Positions 2,936 through 37,974 of a stretch of 64,000 nucleotides of DNA are shown here, piece by piece. The DNA is taken from positions 1 through 64,000 of the forward strand of contig NZ_NMVQ01000004.1 in assembly GCF_002250625.1 (NCBI RefSeq). Direction: 5' to 3'. The number at the start of each line of letters is the position of its first letter. Within the stretch, counting starts at the first letter, position 1. Both the position numbers and the translations under genes were made by a program. This stretch comes from Enemella dayhoffiae (GTDB lineage Bacteria; Actinomycetota; Actinomycetes; Propionibacteriales; Propionibacteriaceae). The notes under the pieces were generated by a model. The model saw only the letters and a program-made list of their open reading frames with translations. It had not been told where the DNA came from and ran no database searches.

Positions 2936-3772
2936 TCAGATCAGCGGCGCGGCAGGACCGTCGGGTCGCTCGCGGCGGGCGGCGACGATGCGGTCGACCA
3001 CCTCACCGATCCGGCCCTCGTCGAAGCGGTCGATGCCGTCGGCGCTGGCCACCATCACCACCGGGAAGATGCGCCGTTGCAGGTCCGGTCCGCCGGTGGC
3101 CGAGTCGTCGTCGGCGGCGTCATAGAGCGCCTGGACGACCACGGTGGCGCACTCCAGCGCGTCCAGCCCCGAACGGTAGAGCTTCTTCAGCGAGCCGCGG
3201 GCGTACACCGATCCCGAGCCGACCGAGTGGAACGCGGTTTCCTCGTAGCGTCCGCCGGTGGCGTCGTAGGAGAAGATCCGGCCCTGCTGCTGGCTGGTGT
3301 CCCAGCCGGCGAACAGCGGAAGCACGGCCAGCCCCTGCATCGCCATGCCGAGGTTTCCGCGGATCATCGCGGCCAGCCGATTCGCCTTGCCGTCAAGGGA
3401 CAGCGGGGCTCCCTCGATCTTCTCGTAGTGCTCCAGCTCGACCCGGAACAGGCGCACCATCTCGACGGCCAGCCCGGCGGTGCCGGCGATCCCGACGAGC
3501 GAATACTCGTCGGCGGCGTACACCTTTTCGATGTCGCGCTGGGCGATCATGTTGCCCATCGTCGCGCGCCGGTCGCCGGCCATCACCACCCCGCCGGGGA
3601 AGGTGGCCGAGACGATCGTGGTGCCGTGTGGGGCGAGGTCTCCGGTGGAGCCGGACAGCCCCTGGGCGCGCCGGGCCGGGAGCAGCTCGGGGGCGATGTC
3701 GCCGAGGAAGTCGGTGAAGGAGGAGGATCCGGCGCGCAGGTAGGCCGCCGGCAGTCCGGTGCCGCTGCTCAC
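2936..3772 (-). CDS. prcB: Proteasome beta subunit (proteolytic)
   Basis: A 278-residue precursor of the catalytic inner-ring subunit. The first 50 residues form a propeptide, removed at HG/TTIVS to expose the nucleophile Thr51. The conserved [11 protein letters not shown] segment follows, with Lys and Asp residues of the active site in the expected places. The GTG start overlaps the pup stop codon (GTGA), so pup and prcB are translated together. Pupylated proteins unfolded by the Arc ring are degraded here. Confidence 0.96.
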
Positions 3773-3957
3773 TGGCCACCCTTCTGCACGAAGGAACGGA
3801 CGAACTCCTCGGCGTTCACCTCGAGCACCCCGTCGATCTCGTCCAGCAGCGCGTCGAAGTCGTCGTCCGACTGCTGGGTCTGCGCCTGTGCCTGGGTCGG
3901 GCCGGGCTCGGCGCCCTCGTCCTCGTCGCGTCGGCGAATCTGTCGTGACTGGCTCAT
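3769..3957 (-). CDS. pup: Prokaryotic ubiquitin-like protein Pup
   Basis: A 62-residue, highly charged and largely disordered protein. The C-terminal half has the conserved helix [17 protein letters not shown] and the tail [11 protein letters not shown]. The protein ends in Gln, so it must be deamidated by Dop to Glu before a ligase can attach it to target lysines. It lies directly between dop and prcB. A purine-rich GGGGGCGAGA stretch precedes the ATG. The ligase gene pafA is not in this window. Confidence 0.96.
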
Positions 3958-4012
3958 TGTCTCGCCCCCTTCTGGCTCGGATCGCCAGCCTACCCTCCGC
4001 CGGCGCCTGGGC

Positions 4013-5521
4013 TCAGTACCCGAGCTGGGTGATCAGCTGACCGAGGTCCTCAGCGCTCTCCAGCTTGTCGCCGAGGTGGGCGCGGGTGCCGCGCAGCGGA
4101 TCGAGCATCGGGATCCGCAGCAGCGAGCGCCGGTGCGGCAGGTCGAGGATCATCGAATCCCAGGAGGCGGCCACCACCTGGTCGGGGTAACGCCGCATGC
4201 ATTCCCCGCGGAAGTAGGCCCGGGTGTCGGTGGGCGGCTCGAGCCGGGCCCGCTCGATCTCGTCGTCGGTGAGCAACCGGCGCATCCGGCCCTTGCGGAT
4301 CAGCGCGTGATAGAGGCTGCGAGCGGGGTCGATCTCGGCGTACTGGAGGTCGATCAGGGCCAGCTTGGGCGCGTCCCAGTCCATGCCGTCGCGGGCGCGA
4401 TAGGACTCGAGCAGCTTGAGTTTTGCCACCCAGTCGAGCCGGTCGGCGAGCTCCATCGGGTCGCGGCGCAGCGCGTCCAGGCATGCCCGCCAGGCGGCGA
4501 GCAGTTCGGTGGCCTCGTCGGGGTGGGCGATCAGTTCGGGTCTGGTCCGCAGCAGGGTGTCGACCCGGTCGGCGTACGCCTCCTGCAGCGCGAGCGCGGT
4601 GATCGTGCCGGCCCCCTCGGTCAGCGGAAGTTCCTTGCTCAGCGAAAGATCGTGCGAGACGTCGTGCATCGCGGCCACCGGGTCGGCCAGCCGCGGCAGG
4701 TCGGCGCACAGGTCGACCTCGATCGCGGCGAGCACCAGCGCCGCGGTGCCGATCTTCAACCAGCCGGCGTACTCGCTGCGATTGGCGTCGCCGGTGATCA
4801 CGTGCAGCCGGCGGTGGACGCGGGCCTGGGCGTGCGGTTCGTCGCGGGTGTTGATCACTGGCCGGTTCAGCGTGGTCTCCAGCCCGACCTCGGCCTCGAA
4901 GAAGTCGGCGCGCTGGCTGAGTTGATAGCCGGCCTCGTCGCTGTACTGCCCGAGTCCCACCCGACCGGCTCCGGTGAGCGGCTGGCGGGTGACCAGGAAG
5001 CCGGTGAACTGCAGCACGATCCGGTGGAACGGGGTGGCCCGGGAGAGCAGGTAGTTCTCGTGGGTGCCGTAGGAGGCGCCCTTGCCGTCGGTGTTGTTCT
5101 TCCACAGCCGCAGCGGTTGGCCGAGTCGGGCGGACGCGTTCTGGGCGGCCAGGTGCACCAGGTGGTCGCCGGCGGCATCCCACAGCACGGCGTCGCGGGC
5201 GCTGGTCACCTCGGGGCCCGAATATTCGGGGTGGGCATGGTCGACGTAGAGCCGCGCCCCGTTCGTGAGCACCAGGTTGGCCATGCTGTCGTCGTCGGTC
5301 AGCTGGTCGGGGTGGGCGATCCGACGGTCCACGGTGAAACCGCGGGCGTCATCCAGCGGGTGCTCGGTCTCGTAGTCCCAGCGCTGCCCCGCCGCCGCCA
5401 GCTCGCCGTAACCGCGCACCAGCAGGTTGGCCCAGTGCATCGGGTGCAGGCCCGTCGCGGGTCCCTGCCCGCCGACCGCGATCCCATATTCCGTCTCCAG
5501 TCCGAACACCTGTTGTGCCAC
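4013..5521 (-). CDS. dop: Pup deamidase/depupylase Dop
   Basis: A 502-residue enzyme of the carboxylate-amine ligase fold. The N-terminal [10 protein letters not shown] (residues 7-16) is the nucleotide/metal motif shared by Dop and PafA. The region after about residue 40 ([15 protein letters not shown]) and its place directly before pup identify it as Dop rather than PafA. It deamidates the C-terminal Gln of Pup and removes Pup from substrates. The start is GTG at 5521; the stretch before it carries no strong ribosome site, and it sits back to back with a divergent membrane-protein gene 37 bases away. Confidence 0.93.
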
Positions 5522-5545
5522 CCGCCGAGCCTATCCCCCGCACCG

Positions 5546-5551
5546 TAGACT
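5546..5551 (+). promoter_or_regulatory. -10 box for a leaderless membrane-protein gene
   Basis: TAGACT ends 7 bases before the GTG at 5559. No ribosome site is present between them, so the transcript probably starts at or next to the start codon. No clear -35 box is found at the standard distance. Confidence 0.5.
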
Positions 5552-5558
5552 CGCCGTC

Positions 5559-5948
5559 GTGCGATTCCTTGGCCAGTTGCTCGTCGACGTGCTGCTGGTC
5601 CTCGGCTTCACGCTGGCGATGCGGGTGAGCCATTCGCAACCGGTTCACCCCGCCGGACTGGCCAACACCGCCTGGCCGTTCCTGGTCGGTCTGCTGGTCG
5701 GGTGGCTGCTGTCGCGGTCCTGGCGCAACACCCTGACCCTGTACGCCGCCGTCGGCGTGTGGGTGTGCACCGTCGGGCTCGGACTCATGATCCGACGGGT
5801 GACCATGACCGGTCAGCAGCCGTCGTTCACCATGGTCGCCTCCTCGGTGCTGGCGGTGTTCCTGCTCGGCTGGCGACTGGTGGCGTTCCTCTTCCTCGAG
5901 GTACGCCGCCGGCAGGGCCCCATTCCGCGTACGCCTGTGCCCGGTTAG
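5559..5948 (+). CDS. DUF3054-family integral membrane protein
   Basis: A 129-residue protein with four predicted hydrophobic segments: LLVDVLLVLGFTLAM, the WPFLVGLLVGWLL region, LYAAVGVWVCTVGLGLMI, and MVASSVLAVFLLGWRLVAFL. It ends in a short basic cytoplasmic tail. The length and pattern match the DUF3054 family of small four-helix actinobacterial membrane proteins, whose function is unknown. It lies on the opposite strand inside the proteasome locus, between dop and arc. GTG at 5559 was chosen because it starts MRFLGQLLVDV straight after a -10 box. Confidence 0.8.
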   Translation: MRFLGQLLVDVLLVLGFTLAMRVSHSQPVHPAGLANTAWPFLVGLLVGWLLSRSWRNTLTLYAAVGVWVCTVGLGLMIRRVTMTGQQPSFTMVASSVLAVFLLGWRLVAFLFLEVRRRQGPIPRTPVPG

Positions 5949-5960
5949 CGGTTGGGATGC

Positions 5961-7697
5961 CTACAGGTACTGACCGGTGGCCGAAGCGGTCTCCACGCTG
6001 CGACTGGTGACCTGCTTGGAGGTGAACAGCGGACGGATGTAGACGATCCGCTCCCCCTTCTTGCCCGAGATCTTCGCCCAGTCGTCGGGGTTGGTGGTGT
6101 TGGGCAGGTCCTCGTTCTCACCGAACTCGTCGTTGCACGCCTGCAGCAGGTGCTCCATCCGCAGCCCACCCGAGGCCCCGGCCAGTCGTTCCTTGATCGC
6201 CGCCTTCTTGGCCCGACCGACGATGTTCTGGATCATGGCGCCCGACGAGAAGTCCTTGAAGTAGAGAATCTCCTTGTCCCCGCCGGCGTAGGTCACCTCG
6301 AGGAACTGGTTGTCGGCATTCTCGGCGTACATGTGCGAGACCGCCGCGTCGATCATCTCGGAGCGGCACCGGTTCGCGTCCCCACCGAAGCGCTCCAGAT
6401 CCTCCTCCGCCAGCGGCAGCGCCGCCGTGAAGTAGCGGGCGAAAATCTCCCGGGCGGCCTCGGCGTCGGGCCGATCCACCTTGATCTTGACGTCCAGCCG
6501 TCCCGGTCGCAGGATCGCCGGATCGATCATGTCCTCCCGGTTGGAGGCGCCGATCACGATCACGTTGCTCAGCGATTCGACCCCATCCAGCTCGCTGAGC
6601 AACTGCGGCACGATCGTGTTCTCCACATCGGAGGAGACACCTGAACCGCGGGTCCGGAACAGCGAGTCCATCTCGTCGAAGAAGACGATCACCGGCATGC
6701 CGTCGCTCGCCTTTGCTCGTGCTCGTTGGAAAATCAGCCGAATGTGGCGCTCGGTCTCACCCACGTACTTGTTCAGCAGCTCCGGGCCCTTGACGTTCAG
6801 GAAGAACCCGCGCCCCTCCTGCCCGGTCTGTGCGGCCACCTTGCGGGCCAGCGAGTTGGCCACCGCCTTGGCGATCATCGTCTTGCCGCAGCCGGGTGGG
6901 CCATAGAGCAGCACCCCCTTGGGCGGGGTGAGCTCATAGTCGGCGTAGAGATCTGCGTGCAGGAAGGGCAATTCCACCGCATCGGTGATCTGTTCGATCT
7001 GCACCGACAGGCCGCCGATCGCCGAATAGTCGATGTCGGGCACCTCTTCGAGGACCAGTTCTTCGACGTCCAGCTTCGGCACCACCTCGAACGCGAACAT
7101 CGACCGCCGCTCGATCAGCAGCAGGTCCCCGGCTCGCGGATGCTGCTCCACCAGGGCGCTGGCGAGGTGCACCACCAGCTCGTCGTCGCTGTGCACGATC
7201 ACCACGGCCCGCTGTCCGTCGGGCAGCACGTCCTTGAGTACGCCGATCTCACCGGCCGGAGGGATGTCGTCGATGCCCACCACCAGCATCGACTCGTTGA
7301 CCAGCACCGGCGTCCCGGGGAGCAGTTCCAGCGGGTCGATCTGGTCCATCGCCAGGGCGGTGCGCAGCCGCCGGCCCTGGGTGTGGATGTCGGCCAGGCG
7401 TACCTCGGCCCCCGGCTCGGCCGGAAGCAGGCGTTCGAGTACGCCGAAGCCCACCGGCGGCTCCCCCAACTCCTCCAGCTGGGCCTTGAGCGTGACCATC
7501 CGATCCCGCGCCTCGCGCAGCGTCTGGGACAACCGCTCGTTCTGCGCGGCCACCTGCCTGGCATCGGCGCGCGCCTCGGCCAGCCGCTTCTCCACCAGCG
7601 CAACATCGCGAGGGTGACGGGCCACCCGCTCGCGCAGTTCGGCGAGCTCGGCGGTCAGTGCCGCCACCTTGTCCGGTTGCGATCCCTGTTCGGTCAC
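5961..7697 (-). CDS. arc: Proteasome-associated AAA ATPase (Mpa/ARC)
   Basis: A 578-residue hexameric unfoldase that recognises Pup and feeds substrates to the 20S core. Residues 1-75 form a coiled coil ([15 protein letters not shown] and onward). Two OB-fold modules follow to about 215. The AAA domain has Walker A GPPGCGKT at 266-273 and Walker [10 protein letters not shown] at 336-344. The protein ends in GQYL, the short tail carrying the penultimate tyrosine needed to dock in the alpha-ring pockets. Codons near 7697 are preceded by GAGGTGAG, a good ribosome site. Confidence 0.96.
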
Positions 7698-7723
7698 GGG
7701 CTCACCTCCTCAATGGACCGAGC

Positions 7724-8647
7724 CTACTCGGCGTTGGTCACCCAGGGCGGGCGCGGCCCGGTGTAGTCGGGACCGTACGCCCCAGGGGCGGGGCGGCGCT
7801 TCCGCAGCGGGGTGACCACCCCGGGCGCGAGCCGGCGGGCGGTGACCAGGAACCCGGTGTGGCTCGAGGTGCCGTGGGCGGGCCGGATCGCCAACCCCTC
7901 GGCGTGCCAGCCCCGGACGATCGTCTCGGTACCCTCGGGCTCGGTGAAGCCGGTGTGGGTGCGGATCTGGTCCATCACCCGCCCCAGCTGGGTCGTGGTC
8001 GCCACATAGCAGCAGAGCACCCCGCCCGGGGTGAGTCGCTGCGCGACGGCGTCCACGCACTCCCACGGGGCCAACATGTCAAGCACCACCCGATCCAGCT
8101 CCGGCGCCAGCTCGGCGTCGGCCTCGAGCCGGGTGACCAGGTCCCCGACCTCGACCTGCCAGCCCGGGTGCTCCCCGCCCAGCCAGGTGTTGACGTTGCG
8201 CCGGGCGATCTCGGCGAAGTCGTCCCGCCGTTCGAACGACCACAATCGCCCGGTCGGACCCAGCGCCCGCAGCAGTGAGAGGGTCAACGCCCCCGACCCG
8301 ACCCCTGCCTCGAGCACCCGGGCGCCGGGGAAGATGTCGGCGGCCATCACGATCTGGGCCGCCTCCTTGGGATAGACCACCGCGGCCCCGCGCGGCATCG
8401 TCACGGTGAAGTCGCCGAGCAGCGGCCGCAGCGCCAGGAAGCTCATCCCGCCGACCGACCGCACCACCACCCCGTCGGGCCCGCCGATCAGGTCGTCGTG
8501 GCTGATCCCGCCCTTGGTGGTGTGGAAGGTCTTGCCGGGTTGCAGTTGCACCGAGTGCTTCTTGCCCTTGGGGTCGGTCAGCGTCACCCAGTCACCGGGC
8601 TGCAGCGGTCCGGTGCGTACGCCGGAGAAGTCGTTCACCAGGTCCAT
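7724..8647 (-). CDS. trmI: tRNA (adenine-58-N1)-methyltransferase
   Basis: A 307-residue class I SAM methyltransferase. It has an N-terminal beta domain starting FSGVRTGPLQPGDWVTLTDP, and the TrmI-specific PRGAAVVYPKEAAQI stretch comes before the SAM loop VLEAGVGSGALT (111-122). ERRDDFAEIARRN and LDMLAPWECV follow as later methyltransferase motifs. It methylates A58 of tRNA, and in actinobacteria it sits next to arc, as here. The ATG at 8647 overlaps the 3' end of the lipoprotein gene by 13 bases; a GTG two codons earlier is an alternative start. Confidence 0.92.
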   Translation of the reverse strand: MDLVNDFSGVRTGPLQPGDWVTLTDPKGKKHSVQLQPGKTFHTTKGGISHDDLIGGPDGVVVRSVGGMSFLALRPLLGDFTVTMPRGAAVVYPKEAAQIVMAADIFPGARVLEAGVGSGALTLSLLRALGPTGRLWSFERRDDFAEIARRNVNTWLGGEHPGWQVEVGDLVTRLEADAELAPELDRVVLDMLAPWECVDAVAQRLTPGGVLCCYVATTTQLGRVMDQIRTHTGFTEPEGTETIVRGWHAEGLAIRPAHGTSSHTGFLVTARRLAPGVVTPLRKRRPAPGAYGPDYTGPRPPWVTNAE

Positions 8648-10068
8648 CCCCACAGTCCGAGCTGATACCCCGGACCCATCCAGTTCTTGAACTCCTTGTC
8701 CACCACCAGCGAGGGGTGCCGATAGAAGGTGCGGTCCCGCTGGGTCAGCGGCAGCACCGTCGCGTCCACGGCCGCCTGCTGCTGGATCGTCAGCGCCGTC
8801 TTCTCCCGGCCCTCCAGCGACGGGTCGGTGCGCAGCGCGTGGATCAGTTCGCTGGTTCGCCTCTCCTGCCCCGGCAGCGGATGCTCCCACCACGCCTGAA
8901 GCCAGGCCACCGGGGTGCTGGTGGTGACCCCGCCGGCGTCCAGGATCAGGTCGGCCTGGCTCGGGTCGGGGGCGATGGTGACCCGGATGCCGTTGGCCTG
9001 CAGCGCCTGCTGCACCTGGGGGAGCAGGTCGCGGCTCAGGTCGTTGTTGCTCGACTGGGCCAGGGTGAGTTCGGCGGCCGGGCCGGGGGCCGGTGCCGCT
9101 GCGGTCGCAAAGGTGTCCGCGGCGAAGGGGATTCCCGCGGGGATCAGCGAGTGCAGCGTACGCAGGTTGCCGGTCGAGTCCTTCACCCGCCCGCGCAGGG
9201 CCGCGTCGCCGCGCCGCGGTGACTTCGGGTTCCAGATCAACCGGGACACGTCGGCGCCGGGCAGCACCTCGGGCAACAGGTTGATGGTGGAGTCCTTCGG
9301 CGGCGTACCCCCACGCCAGACCAGGTCGACGGTGCCGGTGGCCACGGCCCGATCCATCAGGGCCGGGCTGCTGAACGTCTTCACCACGACCTCGGGACGC
9401 CGGGAGAACGTCGGACCCGTGTAGCGCGGGTTCTTCGCGAACACCAGGGTGTCGAGGGAGCGGTCGGGCGGGAGATAGGGCCCGGAACTGATCGGCGCCT
9501 GGTCCTGGGGCCACAGCGCGTCGGCCGGATAGGCCTCCTCGTCGACGATCGACGCCGCCGGGGTGCTGATCGCGAAGCCGAAGTTGTTGTCGGGATGTTT
9601 GAGTTTGAACTCCACCAGCTGCGGGTTGTTGGCGTTGATGCTGGCGAGGCTGTCCAGCATCGCCGCGCCGGTCCCCGGGACCGCGAGTCGCTGGGCGCGC
9701 TCGATGGAGAACTTGACGTCCTGGCTGGTCAGCGCGTGGCCGTTGGTGAAGCTGCGCCCTTTCGGGATGATGCAGGAATAGGTGAGTTCGTCGACGAACC
9801 GGCACTCGGTGGCCAGGTCCGTCTTCAGCGCGGGCAGCCCGACCTGCGGCACCATCAACCGCTGAAACACGTTGTAGGCATAGAACTGCGACCCCTCGTC
9901 GACCGCCGCTGCCGGGTCGGTCGTGGTCACCCGGGCCGTCACCGCCACCGTCACCGGGCGATCGGGGATCGGCGCCGCCGGGGTGTCGTTGCGGCTGCAG
10001 CCGCCGAGCAGCAGGCTTCCCGCCAGCAGCAGCGCAGCGGTACGCCACCCGATCCCGCGCTGGCTCAC
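8635..10068 (-). CDS. Family 5 extracellular solute-binding lipoprotein
   Basis: A 477-residue secreted lipoprotein. The N-terminus MSQRGIGWRTAALLLAGSLL runs into LGGC, with the lipid-acceptor cysteine at residue 24. The mature part is an SBP_bac_5 (DppA/OppA-like) domain, shown by GRSFTNGHALTSQDVKFSIE, SSGPYLPPDRS and the C-terminal GPGYQLGLWGW. It probably binds peptides or a similar ligand at the membrane, but there are no permease or ATPase genes beside it. The GTG start at 10068 overlaps the stop of the HAD gene (GTGA). A longer in-frame start inside that gene was rejected because it would bury the signal peptide. Confidence 0.87.
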   Translation of the reverse strand: MSQRGIGWRTAALLLAGSLLLGGCSRNDTPAAPIPDRPVTVAVTARVTTTDPAAAVDEGSQFYAYNVFQRLMVPQVGLPALKTDLATECRFVDELTYSCIIPKGRSFTNGHALTSQDVKFSIERAQRLAVPGTGAAMLDSLASINANNPQLVEFKLKHPDNNFGFAISTPAASIVDEEAYPADALWPQDQAPISSGPYLPPDRSLDTLVFAKNPRYTGPTFSRRPEVVVKTFSSPALMDRAVATGTVDLVWRGGTPPKDSTINLLPEVLPGADVSRLIWNPKSPRRGDAALRGRVKDSTGNLRTLHSLIPAGIPFAADTFATAAAPAPGPAAELTLAQSSNNDLSRDLLPQVQQALQANGIRVTIAPDPSQADLILDAGGVTTSTPVAWLQAWWEHPLPGQERRTSELIHALRTDPSLEGREKTALTIQQQAAVDATVLPLTQRDRTFYRHPSLVVDKEFKNWMGPGYQLGLWGWTW

Positions 10069-34250: not shown

Positions 34251-35594
34251 TCAGGACTGCCAGTCCGGGTTGGTCAACCAGTCGATCGCCGCCATCGCCG
34301 ACCACGACTGCTGCGGGCTGCCCAGGGTCTCGTTCGTCCGCGGCTCGTAGTATTCGCCGAAGCTGAGATCCCGCAACTGGTCCAACCCGGCCAGACGCCA
34401 CGCCAGCGCATCCTCGCGATGCCCGGACCGCAGGGCGGTCCACGCGAACAGCCAGTTCATCACCGGCCAGACCGGGCCGCGCCAATATTCCCTGGGCCGC
34501 AGTTGCGGCGAGTCGAGACTGACCGAGGGAGGCAGCGGGAAGGCCATCTCGGGATGCCCGCACCATCGCTCGCCCAGCAGGATCTCTCGCTGACGTTGCG
34601 TTTCCGCGTCGTCCCCACCCATCAGCACGGCCGCGAAACCGCCCATCGACTCGGTGCTCAACCAGCGCTGCGCGTTGATGTCGAAGTCGCGGCAGAGCCC
34701 GGTCACCGGATCGATCGTGGCCAGCACCCCCGCCCGGGTGCGCTCCGCCCGGGCCCGCTCGGTCGTCGCCACGTCCGCCTGTCCGAGGTCCTCGGCGATG
34801 CGGGTCAGCGACTCCGCGGCCAGCACCAGGATCGCCGCCATGAACACGTCGGTGACGCGGAAGTCGAGCACCTCCTTGACCCGCACGTCGTCGAACTGGA
34901 CACTCTTCATCTGCTCGATCAGCGTGATGTAGCGCTGATACTCCTCGTCGGAGGGTCGCTCGGAGGCGTCGGCGTGGTTGAGGTCCATCCGCGCGAACTC
35001 GAGTCGACGGCTGACCTTCACCCCGGCGTACACCTCGTCCCAGCGCGGGGAGTTGTCCATTCCGGATTCCCAACCGTGGTGGATTTCCACGACGTCGGCG
35101 TACCCGCGCGCGGTGGACAACCACTCGTGCCAACGCGTCAACCTGCGCAGCGCCTCGGCCGCGAACTCCTCGGCCACCTGGAGGTCCTCACCACCGCACC
35201 GGCGCGCCTGCTGCAGCACCAGCTCCAGGGCGATCGCGTGCACCGGTGGCTGACAGATTCCCGAGCTGTGCACCCCCGCCGGCAGGGCCGGGGCGACCGC
35301 GGTCCCCCAGTCGTCGAAGTCCGGAAAGTAGCCGGGTTCGTCGGAGAAGATGATGTGCGGCAGCATGCCGGTACGCCACTGCCCGGCGAGCACCGTCCGG
35401 AGCTCCGCGATGGCCCTGGGCACCGACAGCTGAGCGAGCCCGATGGCCACGAACGCCGCATCCCAGGACCACTGGTGCGGGTACAGGCTCGGGCCGGCCT
35501 TGATCATGTGGCCGAGGTCGTTGTCCCGCAGCACCTGCTTGGCCGACTCGAGAAGTTGCCGATCGGGGGCCGTTCCGGTTTCGAGCTGGGTCAC
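34251..35594 (-). CDS. Glucosylglycerate hydrolase (GH63 type)
   Basis: A 447-residue alpha-barrel glycosidase that closely resembles mycobacterial glucosylglycerate hydrolase. NDLGHMIKAGPSLYPHQWSW leads to WDAAF (residues 44-48). GWESGMDNSPRWD at 174-186 holds the likely acid Asp180. REYWRGPVWPV follows near 368, and EYYEP at 414-418 holds the likely base Glu414. It should split glucosylglycerate (perhaps mannosylglycerate) to the sugar and glycerate. The GTG overlaps the stop of the damaged ABC ATPase (GTGA), so it is the last gene of a former uptake operon. ROK control is likely. Confidence 0.85.
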   Translation of the reverse strand: MTQLETGTAPDRQLLESAKQVLRDNDLGHMIKAGPSLYPHQWSWDAAFVAIGLAQLSVPRAIAELRTVLAGQWRTGMLPHIIFSDEPGYFPDFDDWGTAVAPALPAGVHSSGICQPPVHAIALELVLQQARRCGGEDLQVAEEFAAEALRRLTRWHEWLSTARGYADVVEIHHGWESGMDNSPRWDEVYAGVKVSRRLEFARMDLNHADASERPSDEEYQRYITLIEQMKSVQFDDVRVKEVLDFRVTDVFMAAILVLAAESLTRIAEDLGQADVATTERARAERTRAGVLATIDPVTGLCRDFDINAQRWLSTESMGGFAAVLMGGDDAETQRQREILLGERWCGHPEMAFPLPPSVSLDSPQLRPREYWRGPVWPVMNWLFAWTALRSGHREDALAWRLAGLDQLRDLSFGEYYEPRTNETLGSPQQSWSAMAAIDWLTNPDWQS

Positions 35595-36553
35595 CGGGCC
35601 GCTCCACCAACGCTGGTCCGGCGATCACCAAGATCCCACAGCAGGCCGGTCTCCGGGTCGTACAACCGAATCGCGTGCGGAGCGACGCTGAGCGTCACCT
35701 GCTCCCCGGCGCGTACCAGAACGGTCGGCTCGGTCTGCACCTTGATCTGGTCCCCGGCCACCTCGACGGTGAGCAGGTTGTGCGAACCCAGCGGTTCGGC
35801 GACCAGCACCTCTGCCGCCAGCGTCCCGGGGGTGCCCGGTTCGGCGACCTGGATCGCCTCCGCGCGAACCCCCATCCGGACCGGACCGTTCAACTCCGTG
35901 CGACCCGGCAGCCGCAACTCGTGCCCGCTCACCGCAACACCGTCCCCACCTCCGGTGATCTCGCCGTCCAGGAAGTTCATCGGCGGCGAACCGATGAACC
36001 CGCCGACGAACGTGTCGGCGGGATGGTCGTAGATGTTCAACGGGGTGTCCAACTGCGCGATCTGCCCCTTGCGCATCACCGCCACCTTGTCCCCCAACGA
36101 CAGCGCCTCGGACTGGTCGTGGGTGACGTAGACGGTGGTGGTGCCGAGCTGGTCGACGATCTTCTTCAGCTCCGCCCGGAATCCCAACCGCAGCAGGGCG
36201 TCCAGGTTGGACAGCGGCTCGTCCATCAGCAGCACGTCGGCGTCCACCACGATGGCGCGGGCCACCGCCACCCGCTGCCGCTGGCCACCGGACAGCTGCG
36301 CCGGGAAACGGTCCAGATAGGGGGTGAGCTGCAGCAGCTCGGCGGCCCACTCGACCTTCTTCTCGATGTCGGCCTTCGGCATCTTCTGCTGGACCAGGCC
36401 GAAAGCGATGTTGTGGCGCACCTTGCGATGCGGGAACACCGCATAGGACTGGAACACCATGGACAGGTTCCGCTTGTGCACCGGCATGTAGATGACGTCC
36501 CGCCCGCCGATGGCGATCGCCCCGTCGGTCGGCAGCTCGAGACCGGCGATCAT
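35591..36553 (-). pseudogene. CUT1-type ABC transporter ATPase lacking its 5' end (no Walker A)
   Basis: 320 codons from MIAGLELPTDG to the end of a MalK/UgpC-like sugar importer ATPase. The Q-loop (SMVFQSYAVFPH), signature (LSGGQRQRVAVARA), Walker B (DVLLMDEPLSNLDA), switch histidine (YVTHDQSEA) and C-terminal TOBE domain are intact. The first 40 or so codons, with the first strands and the GPSGCGKTT loop, are gone, so ATP binding should fail. At 36553 the sequence changes abruptly into the start of another gene. It can still be translated by coupling and probably carries translation into the hydrolase gene. Confidence 0.85.
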
Positions 36554-36615
36554 CCCAGGCCGAGGCCGAGCACCCGACGACGGGAGAAACTGCTGCTGCT
36601 GAGCGGATCCGACAT
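36550..36615 (-). pseudogene. 5' remnant of a Tat-type sugar-binding protein gene
   Basis: GAGGAG and an ATG at 36615 begin a 21-codon frame, MSDPLSSSSFSRRRVLGLGLG, then TGA at 36550-36552. The S-R-R-R-V-L core followed by an LGLGLG hydrophobic run is the start of a twin-arginine signal peptide, as in actinobacterial sugar-binding lipoproteins. It breaks off inside the signal. Its stop overlaps the ATG of the truncated ATPase (ATGA). The simplest reading is one deletion that removed the rest of this gene, the two permease genes and the ATPase 5' end. Confidence 0.75.
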
Positions 36616-36677
36616 CTTTGTCTCCTCTGGGCATTCGGTGTTCCGACCACCGCCGGGACCTTTTGTCTTGACTCGGA

Positions 36678-36706
36678 ACATAAAGCTTTACGGCAGACCC
36701 CGTCAA
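36678..36706 (-). promoter_or_regulatory. Promoter of the former importer operon with a palindromic operator
   Basis: On the minus strand TTGACG (36701-36706) and TTATGT (36678-36683) are spaced by 17 bases, one of the best promoters in the window. The perfect palindrome TAAAGCTTTA (36681-36690) overlaps the -10 box and spacer. It faces the divergent ROK gene 58 bases away and is the obvious candidate for the repressor site. The transcript would have a leader of about 55 bases with GAGGAG before the start at 36615. Confidence 0.7.
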
Positions 36707-36747: not shown

Positions 36748-37974
36748 GTGAGTATGACTGGAGCCCGTGGGGATTCTGTGCTGGATCAGGAAGGGGCTGT
36801 GGGAGTGAGTGATCGAAACGGCGAGAGTCGCAGTTCGGCAGTCAGCTGCGGAGCGCTGCTGCAGGAGATCCGCGAGGCCGATGGCATCACCCGACAGGAT
36901 CTCCTGCAGGCCACCGGGATGTCCCGGTCGACGCTCTATCAGCGACTCGACCTGCTGGAGCGGGCCGGTCTGATCCACGAGGCGGGCCAGGAGACGTCGA
37001 CCGGGGGCCGTCCCCCGAAAATCCTCCGCTTCGACGACCGGGGCCGGGTCGCCCTCACCTTCGACGTCGGACACACCCGGGCCGCGGTGTCACTCTGTCG
37101 CCTGGACGGCACCACGCTGAGCGGGCGCACCATCTCCCTGCAACCGGGCTGGCAACCGGCAGCGCTGCTGGAGCAGCTGTCAACGGTGGCGGAGGCGCTG
37201 CTCGATGCGACCTCCGGAGAGCGGCTGGTCGGGATCGGCCTGGGCATCCCGGCACCCGTGCAGTCCCCCGGTGACGTGCGGTGGCCGACCCGGGCGATGC
37301 CGGATGCGGGCTATCCGCTGGTTGACGAGCTGGTCCGCCGGTTCAACGTGCCGGTCTGCGTGGAGAACGACGCCCGCGCCTTCGCCCTCGGCGAATTCGC
37401 CGCCTCGCAGAGCCAGGCCGAACTGTTCCTCGGCATCAAGTACGCCTCCGGTCTCGGCGCCGGCCTGGTCAGCCACGGGGCCATGGTGCGCGGTTCGGTG
37501 GGGGCGGCCGGAGATCTCGGACACATCCGGATCACCGACGACGGCCCGGAGTGCACCTGCCAGAGCCGCGGGTGCCTGGCGGCGTACGCCTCCGGCCGGG
37601 CACTGCTCCGCGACCTCGGGCCGCGCGTCGGGTCGCTGACCGAAGCCGTCCAACTGCTCGACGCCGGGGACCCCGAGGTGACCGACTGGATCGACACCGC
37701 CACCGCCCTGCTAGGGCGGGCGTTGGCCGGTCTGGTCCAGGCGCTCAACCCGCGCGAGGTCGTCTTCGGTGGCTATCTGGGCCGCCACCCCTACATCAGT
37801 GACCGGCTGACCGAGACAATCACCGAGCTGACCCTGGAGCGAGTGCACGACCACACCACGATGTATGCCGGCCGCCTCGGCGCCGCCGCCGGCACGCTGG
37901 GCCTGGTCTGGTTGGTGAACCAGACCCTGTTCTCGGTGCAGCGGGTCGATCAGCTGGTCGCGGACGTGCGCTGA
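36748..37974 (+). CDS. ROK-family transcriptional regulator
   Basis: A 408-residue repressor. An N-terminal winged helix (GITRQDLLQATGMSRSTLYQRL, given here as adjoining motifs, then LERAGLI) at about 45-80 is followed by a ROK sugar-kinase-like domain. Sugar-binding and phosphate residues are in VCVENDARAFALGE, and a zinc-site variant is ECTCQSRGCLAAYASG. It is divergent from the decayed importer operon that ends in glucosylglycerate hydrolase, so it probably senses that sugar or a product. The start is GTG at 36748; an ATG two codons later is equally possible. Confidence 0.85.
   Translation: MSMTGARGDSVLDQEGAVGVSDRNGESRSSAVSCGALLQEIREADGITRQDLLQATGMSRSTLYQRLDLLERAGLIHEAGQETSTGGRPPKILRFDDRGRVALTFDVGHTRAAVSLCRLDGTTLSGRTISLQPGWQPAALLEQLSTVAEALLDATSGERLVGIGLGIPAPVQSPGDVRWPTRAMPDAGYPLVDELVRRFNVPVCVENDARAFALGEFAASQSQAELFLGIKYASGLGAGLVSHGAMVRGSVGAAGDLGHIRITDDGPECTCQSRGCLAAYASGRALLRDLGPRVGSLTEAVQLLDAGDPEVTDWIDTATALLGRALAGLVQALNPREVVFGGYLGRHPYISDRLTETITELTLERVHDHTTMYAGRLGAAAGTLGLVWLVNQTLFSVQRVDQLVADVR

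Follow-up and report, generated by a model that had tools for sequence, protein, structure and literature searches.

Organization of the locus

The window, the whole 64,000-nucleotide stretch of the Enemella dayhoffiae genome that was analyzed, carries on one strand a signal-peptide start, a truncated ABC ATPase gene and a hydrolase gene, with a divergent regulator gene beside their promoter:

34251..35594, minus strand: glucosylglycerate hydrolase (GgH, GH63; NF047898), 447 aa, GTG start overlapping the TGA of the ATPase remnant
35602..35608, minus strand: GGTGGAG, a possible ribosome site of GgH itself, 7 nt before the GTG, read from the sequence only
35591..36553, minus strand: remnant of an ABC ATPase, 320 codons, from residue 50 on (PF00005 matched from profile position 30 only; E. 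evansiae alignment)
36553..36556, minus strand: deletion junction, GG common to both sides, then ATG (alignment to L023)
36550..36615, minus strand: Tat signal peptide remnant of a binding protein, 21 codons (aligns to L023 3658-3710)
36626-36622, minus strand: AGGAG, SD of this mini-ORF
36661..36683, minus strand: candidate operator TTATGTTCCGAGTCAAGACAAAA, over the -10 and the start site (12/14 motif positions)
36677..36706, minus strand: core promoter, TTGACG (36706-36701), 18 nt, TATGTT (36682-36677), by consensus; kept in the promoter of the E. evansiae operon
36748..37974, plus strand: divergent gene for a ROK-family transcriptional repressor, HTH and ROK domain (PF00480, E 9.8e-46, and HTH matches; E. 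evansiae orthologue in the same place)

The SD-led ORF MSDPLSSSSFSRRRVLGLGLG starts at 36615, runs for 21 codons and ends at the TGA 36552-36550. In alignment, these codons, their ribosome-binding site and the promoter match the start region of the binding-protein gene of E. evansiae. The stop overlaps, as ATGA, an ATG (36553-36551) that opens MIAGLELP..., a frame of 320 codons closed by the TGA 35593-35591. ORF reading and alignment thus confirmed that a 21-codon signal-peptide start abuts MIAGLELP at 36553, as an earlier, sequence-only reading of the window had noted. That reading described the two genes as fused; they are joined, but out of frame. Since the signal-peptide and ATPase pieces sit in different frames and the former ends at the TGA within ATGA, an in-frame fusion protein is ruled out. 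Also rejected was a 373-aa ORF from 36712, which is the remnant frame read from upstream of the predicted -10, an implausible gene start.

The remnant is 83-84% identical to the E. evansiae ATPase from residue 50. The encoded protein begins past the P-loop, which leaves it without the Walker A expected of a CUT1 importer, and keeps LSGGQ, Walker B and the TOBE/OB domains. The stop of the remnant frame and the GTG start of GgH (35594) overlap as GTGA. The earlier proposal that the ATGA at the junction lets the hydrolase be translated through the remnant stands as to the ATGA itself; the coupling may be unneeded, because GgH may have its own SD.

GgH scored 602 bits against NF047898, above the curated equivalog cut-off of 550, and aligned over its full length with the solved M. 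hassiacum enzyme. The catalytic Asp182 and Glu419 (M. hassiacum numbering) are identical in the window protein, at chain indices 184 and 421 (offset 2). It is a predicted glucosylglycerate hydrolase in which the catalytic pair is kept, and would split the stress sugar glucosylglycerate into glucose and glycerate.

Regarding the control region, the window and E. evansiae have in common the ribosome site AGGAGACAAAGATGTCG and, upstream, the word GGGTAACGATCG. Of 14 related loci, 13 have the motif TTNTGTTC-N7-GAACANAA in their upstream region, at or close to the -10; a shuffle test on it serves as a guide only, since the motif was read off those same loci. The regulator has the N-terminal HTH and the ROK domain of its family, and its gene adjoins the promoter in many importer-bearing loci and also in importer-less ones, which fits a shared repressor-operator pair, a candidate based on the motif. 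Conservation of promoter, candidate operator and ROK gene in E. evansiae and related loci supports the view that the promoter was left intact, with its candidate operator. At another full operon, L021, a perfect inverted repeat TTGACTGATTATCAGTCAA replaces the shared operator motif in the promoter (6-kb region, 5963-6100), a sequence difference which suggests a different regulator site there.

An intact operon in a sister species

The genomes nearest to the window belong to the genus Enemella (Propionibacteriaceae), and the closest sequenced relative is Enemella evansiae NML 020265 (locus L023), whose GgH orthologue is 84% identical. This relative carries an intact operon at the syntenic position, with the ROK gene on one side and the epimerase-carAB genes on the other (L023 coordinates):

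minus strand: ROK repressor gene, divergent to the operon
3658-5001: binding protein (SBP)
5004-5909: permease 1
5909-6796: permease 2
6832-7971: ATPase
7971-9308: GgH, followed by an epimerase gene and carA

An intact syntenic operon is also present in one further family member. Elsewhere in E. evansiae lies a second, distant GgH-like reading frame (G002:C19:4061-5209; L014, L018; about 42% identity in pieces), which was not seen in the window genome.

Alignment of the window to L023 ends on the left side at 3710 and resumes on the right at about 6977-6979, so that in the window binding-protein codon 21 is followed by codon 50 of the ATPase. Relative to E. evansiae, the window lacks one contiguous block of about 3,268 bp (L023 3711-6978), and the flanks of the gap are clean. 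The joint shows 2 bp of microhomology (GG), the binding-protein side reading CTG GG. and the ATPase side.GG ATG. The sequence-only reading had postulated a single deletion of the rest of the binding protein, two permeases and the ATPase P-loop, and expected an intact SBP-permease-permease-ATPase-hydrolase operon in close relatives; both are borne out by E. evansiae. No relative sharing the junction was found, nor was a Walker A supplied elsewhere for this ATPase. We hold with high confidence that the deletion is real.

The assembly, the one genome sampled for E. dayhoffiae, consists of 47 contigs with a completeness of 98.6% and a contamination of 0.04%. Elsewhere in this genome we found no copy of the binding protein, no close permease and, on the other contigs, none of the deleted DNA (about 3.27 kb); the ATPase orthologue is present only at this locus. 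The binding protein and two permeases that define a CUT1 importer are thus missing at the locus and genome-wide; relocation of the importer, to another contig or elsewhere, is ruled out, and its proposed loss is supported by the lack of a second copy. In its intact form the operon probably served to import and hydrolyze glucosylglycerate, the importer substrate being assigned from its linkage to GgH. A literature search found no publication describing this operon, which makes the substrate a testable point in itself.

Age of the deletion

Decay of the remnant was assessed against 12 other intact ATPases, E. evansiae being set aside, which share 109 strictly invariant sites. Only one of these sites is changed in the remnant (T to I), and the frame is still open. 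The nucleotide-binding part shows 12 changes in 190 codons, and a relative-rate test on the remnant (16 versus 10 changes) was not significant. A remnant evolving neutrally over the full branch would be expected to have changed at about 47 of the 109 sites; by a rough estimate, the data fit only if neutral evolution covered no more than about 8% of the branch. An old pseudogene is ruled out by the open frame, the single changed invariant site and the relative-rate test. Since the decay is so slight, the deletion would date, provided that the remnant is drifting neutrally, to roughly the final 8% of the branch; either it is recent, or the remnant has been retained for some other reason. The dN/dS of GgH is 0.18, against 0.175 for carA (NG86). 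With a deletion so young, this low value mostly predates it and gives no selection argument for a function after the loss.

Proposed source of the substrate

Analysis of the window genome revealed a glucosyl-3-phosphoglycerate synthase, GpgS (436 bits; cut-off 262), which is absent from E. evansiae, where the syntenic locus is contiguous. The gene lies in an island of about 5 kb (L135 5612-10646, contig C43), in place of which E. evansiae has a simple joint of about 57 bp linking the two genes that flank the island (L134 9291-9348). The island encodes a histidine phosphatase, GpgS, a GT4 glycosyltransferase, a GFO/IDH/MocA oxidoreductase and a zinc dehydrogenase, and is adjoined by OpuA-type solute-transport genes, including one for a binding protein for compatible solutes. 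The phosphatase passes no GpgP-specific cut-off, and its likeness to GpgP is limited to its position and fold; another Enemella also has the phosphatase-gpgS pair. Our guess is that the GT4 enzyme acts on glucosyl-3-phosphoglycerate. This gpgS island, exactly absent at the E. evansiae syntenic site, is the new finding here. Because of that exact absence, gene content suggests that E. evansiae imports and hydrolyzes glucosylglycerate, whereas the window species makes and hydrolyzes it.

Among 72 genomes with GgH, GpgS is present in 5 of 13 with the importer versus 40 of 59 without it (p 0.06, not corrected for kinship), a weak exclusion that does not uphold a strong rule of importer versus GpgS. 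Two Enemella genomes (G001 and G004) have GpgS and no GgH.

Importer loss in other clades

The gene order of the full operon is identical in 13 loci across Actinobacteria, Chloroflexota and Thermomicrobiota. Eight loci (L022, L026, L035, L040, L042, L046, L047 and L052) have ROK and GgH genes without an importer between them; some loci scored as importer-less sit near contig ends. Full-operon loci are widely spread over the GgH tree, the window clade groups firmly with them (100/99), and a Pseudonocardiales clade (L031, L029, L052) also lies among them. In one member of the latter, a MAG (L031 2232-3700), the start of a binding protein runs into half a permease and this into an ATPase with gaps, ahead of an intact GgH; this multiply deleted importer is flanked on the other side by an intact ROK gene. 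With the caution due to a MAG, it is probably a second, independent and more advanced importer decay. In the importer-less L052, a leader ORF looked by eye like a leftover binding-protein start and gave no significant match. Loss of the importer with GgH kept has thus occurred elsewhere too, in several clades and with one visibly decaying copy (the MAG).

Interpretation

The explanation that we consider probable is that one recent deletion of about 3.27 kb at a GG microhomology gutted the importer, and that the ROK-controlled GgH now acts on internally made glucosylglycerate. Here function is inferred from structure, supported by gene content. The deletion would have taken the body of the binding protein, the two permeases and the P-loop of the ATPase from a ROK-regulated operon in which transcription should still begin at the ROK-controlled promoter. 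Ribosomes would read the 21-codon mini-ORF, could restart at ATGA into the dead ATPase fragment, and would arrive at GgH via the GTGA overlap or its own SD. The substrate would be glucosylglycerate made in the cell by GpgS and the GpgP-like phosphatase, both absent from E. evansiae. A suitable model would be the mycobacterial GgH, taken as remobilizing the solute at the end of stress; ggH of M. hassiacum is upregulated as stored glucosylglycerate gets consumed (PMC6608630).

The locus could instead be simply decaying, through an accident at the level of the strain or culture, with GgH a stranded leftover and the next gene to be lost. The very recent deletion, seen in a single genome of the species, would suit such an accident, and G001 and G004 indicate that the synthase can do without GgH. 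We nevertheless regard it as unlikely, as promoter, repressor and GgH are all intact, importer-less loci of ROK and GgH genes persist in several clades, and the window genome carries the synthase for the GgH substrate.

Two further alternatives appear very improbable. A draft assembly in 47 contigs invites the suspicion that the contig skips an operon which is intact in the real genome; however, the two sides have only 2 bp in common, too little to mislead an assembler, the missing 3.27 kb was found on none of the other contigs, and the remnant has already changed at an otherwise invariant site. That T-to-I change also speaks against a 320-codon remnant that still functions, for example as a regulatory subunit with another CUT1 ATPase. 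The genome does have other ATPases of this type, and the open frame and the few changes in the nucleotide-binding part would agree with retention, but youth accounts for these few changes, and the remnant has no Walker A and no partner permeases.

If the deletion did leave GgH acting on internally made solute, a broader reading can be offered tentatively, which we rate somewhat below an even chance: the sister species would have swapped their source of compatible solute, E. evansiae having importer and hydrolase and the window species gpgS, where the import promoter and ROK would now govern how the cell's own solute is broken down. On this reading, losing the importer while retaining a ROK-controlled GgH would be a route that evolution can take repeatedly, and the window would show it shortly after the first deletion. 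Partial deletion of a catabolic operon is an ordinary event; the interesting part is the reciprocal gene content of the sister species. The window locus represents an early, roughly datable intermediate from 'import and hydrolyze' to 'hydrolyze only' for glucosylglycerate. Standing beside a sister with the opposite gene content, it offers a clean species pair in which to test the re-use of an importer-linked hydrolase and repressor for internal solute turnover.

Comparison with known systems

The GgH of M. hassiacum (PDB 5ohc and related; PMC6608630) is the same GH63 hydrolase, its catalytic pair included, and that genome has its own GpgS, as proposed for the window genome. The paper describes no link to an importer operon, whereas the window GgH, whose role is predicted, adjoins an importer remnant. 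The E. evansiae operon at L023 (also L021, L024, L028, L053 and others) shares with the window its neighbors, promoter and ROK gene, as well as the 3' part of the ATPase gene, the GTGA overlap and GgH; what the window lacks is the body of the binding protein, the two permeases and the N-terminus of the ATPase. The importer-less loci share with the window a divergent ROK gene and GgH, in most cases a similar promoter and operator, and the missing importer. They show no importer remnant, and L031 shows several joined fragments, whereas the window stands at an early, single-deletion stage.
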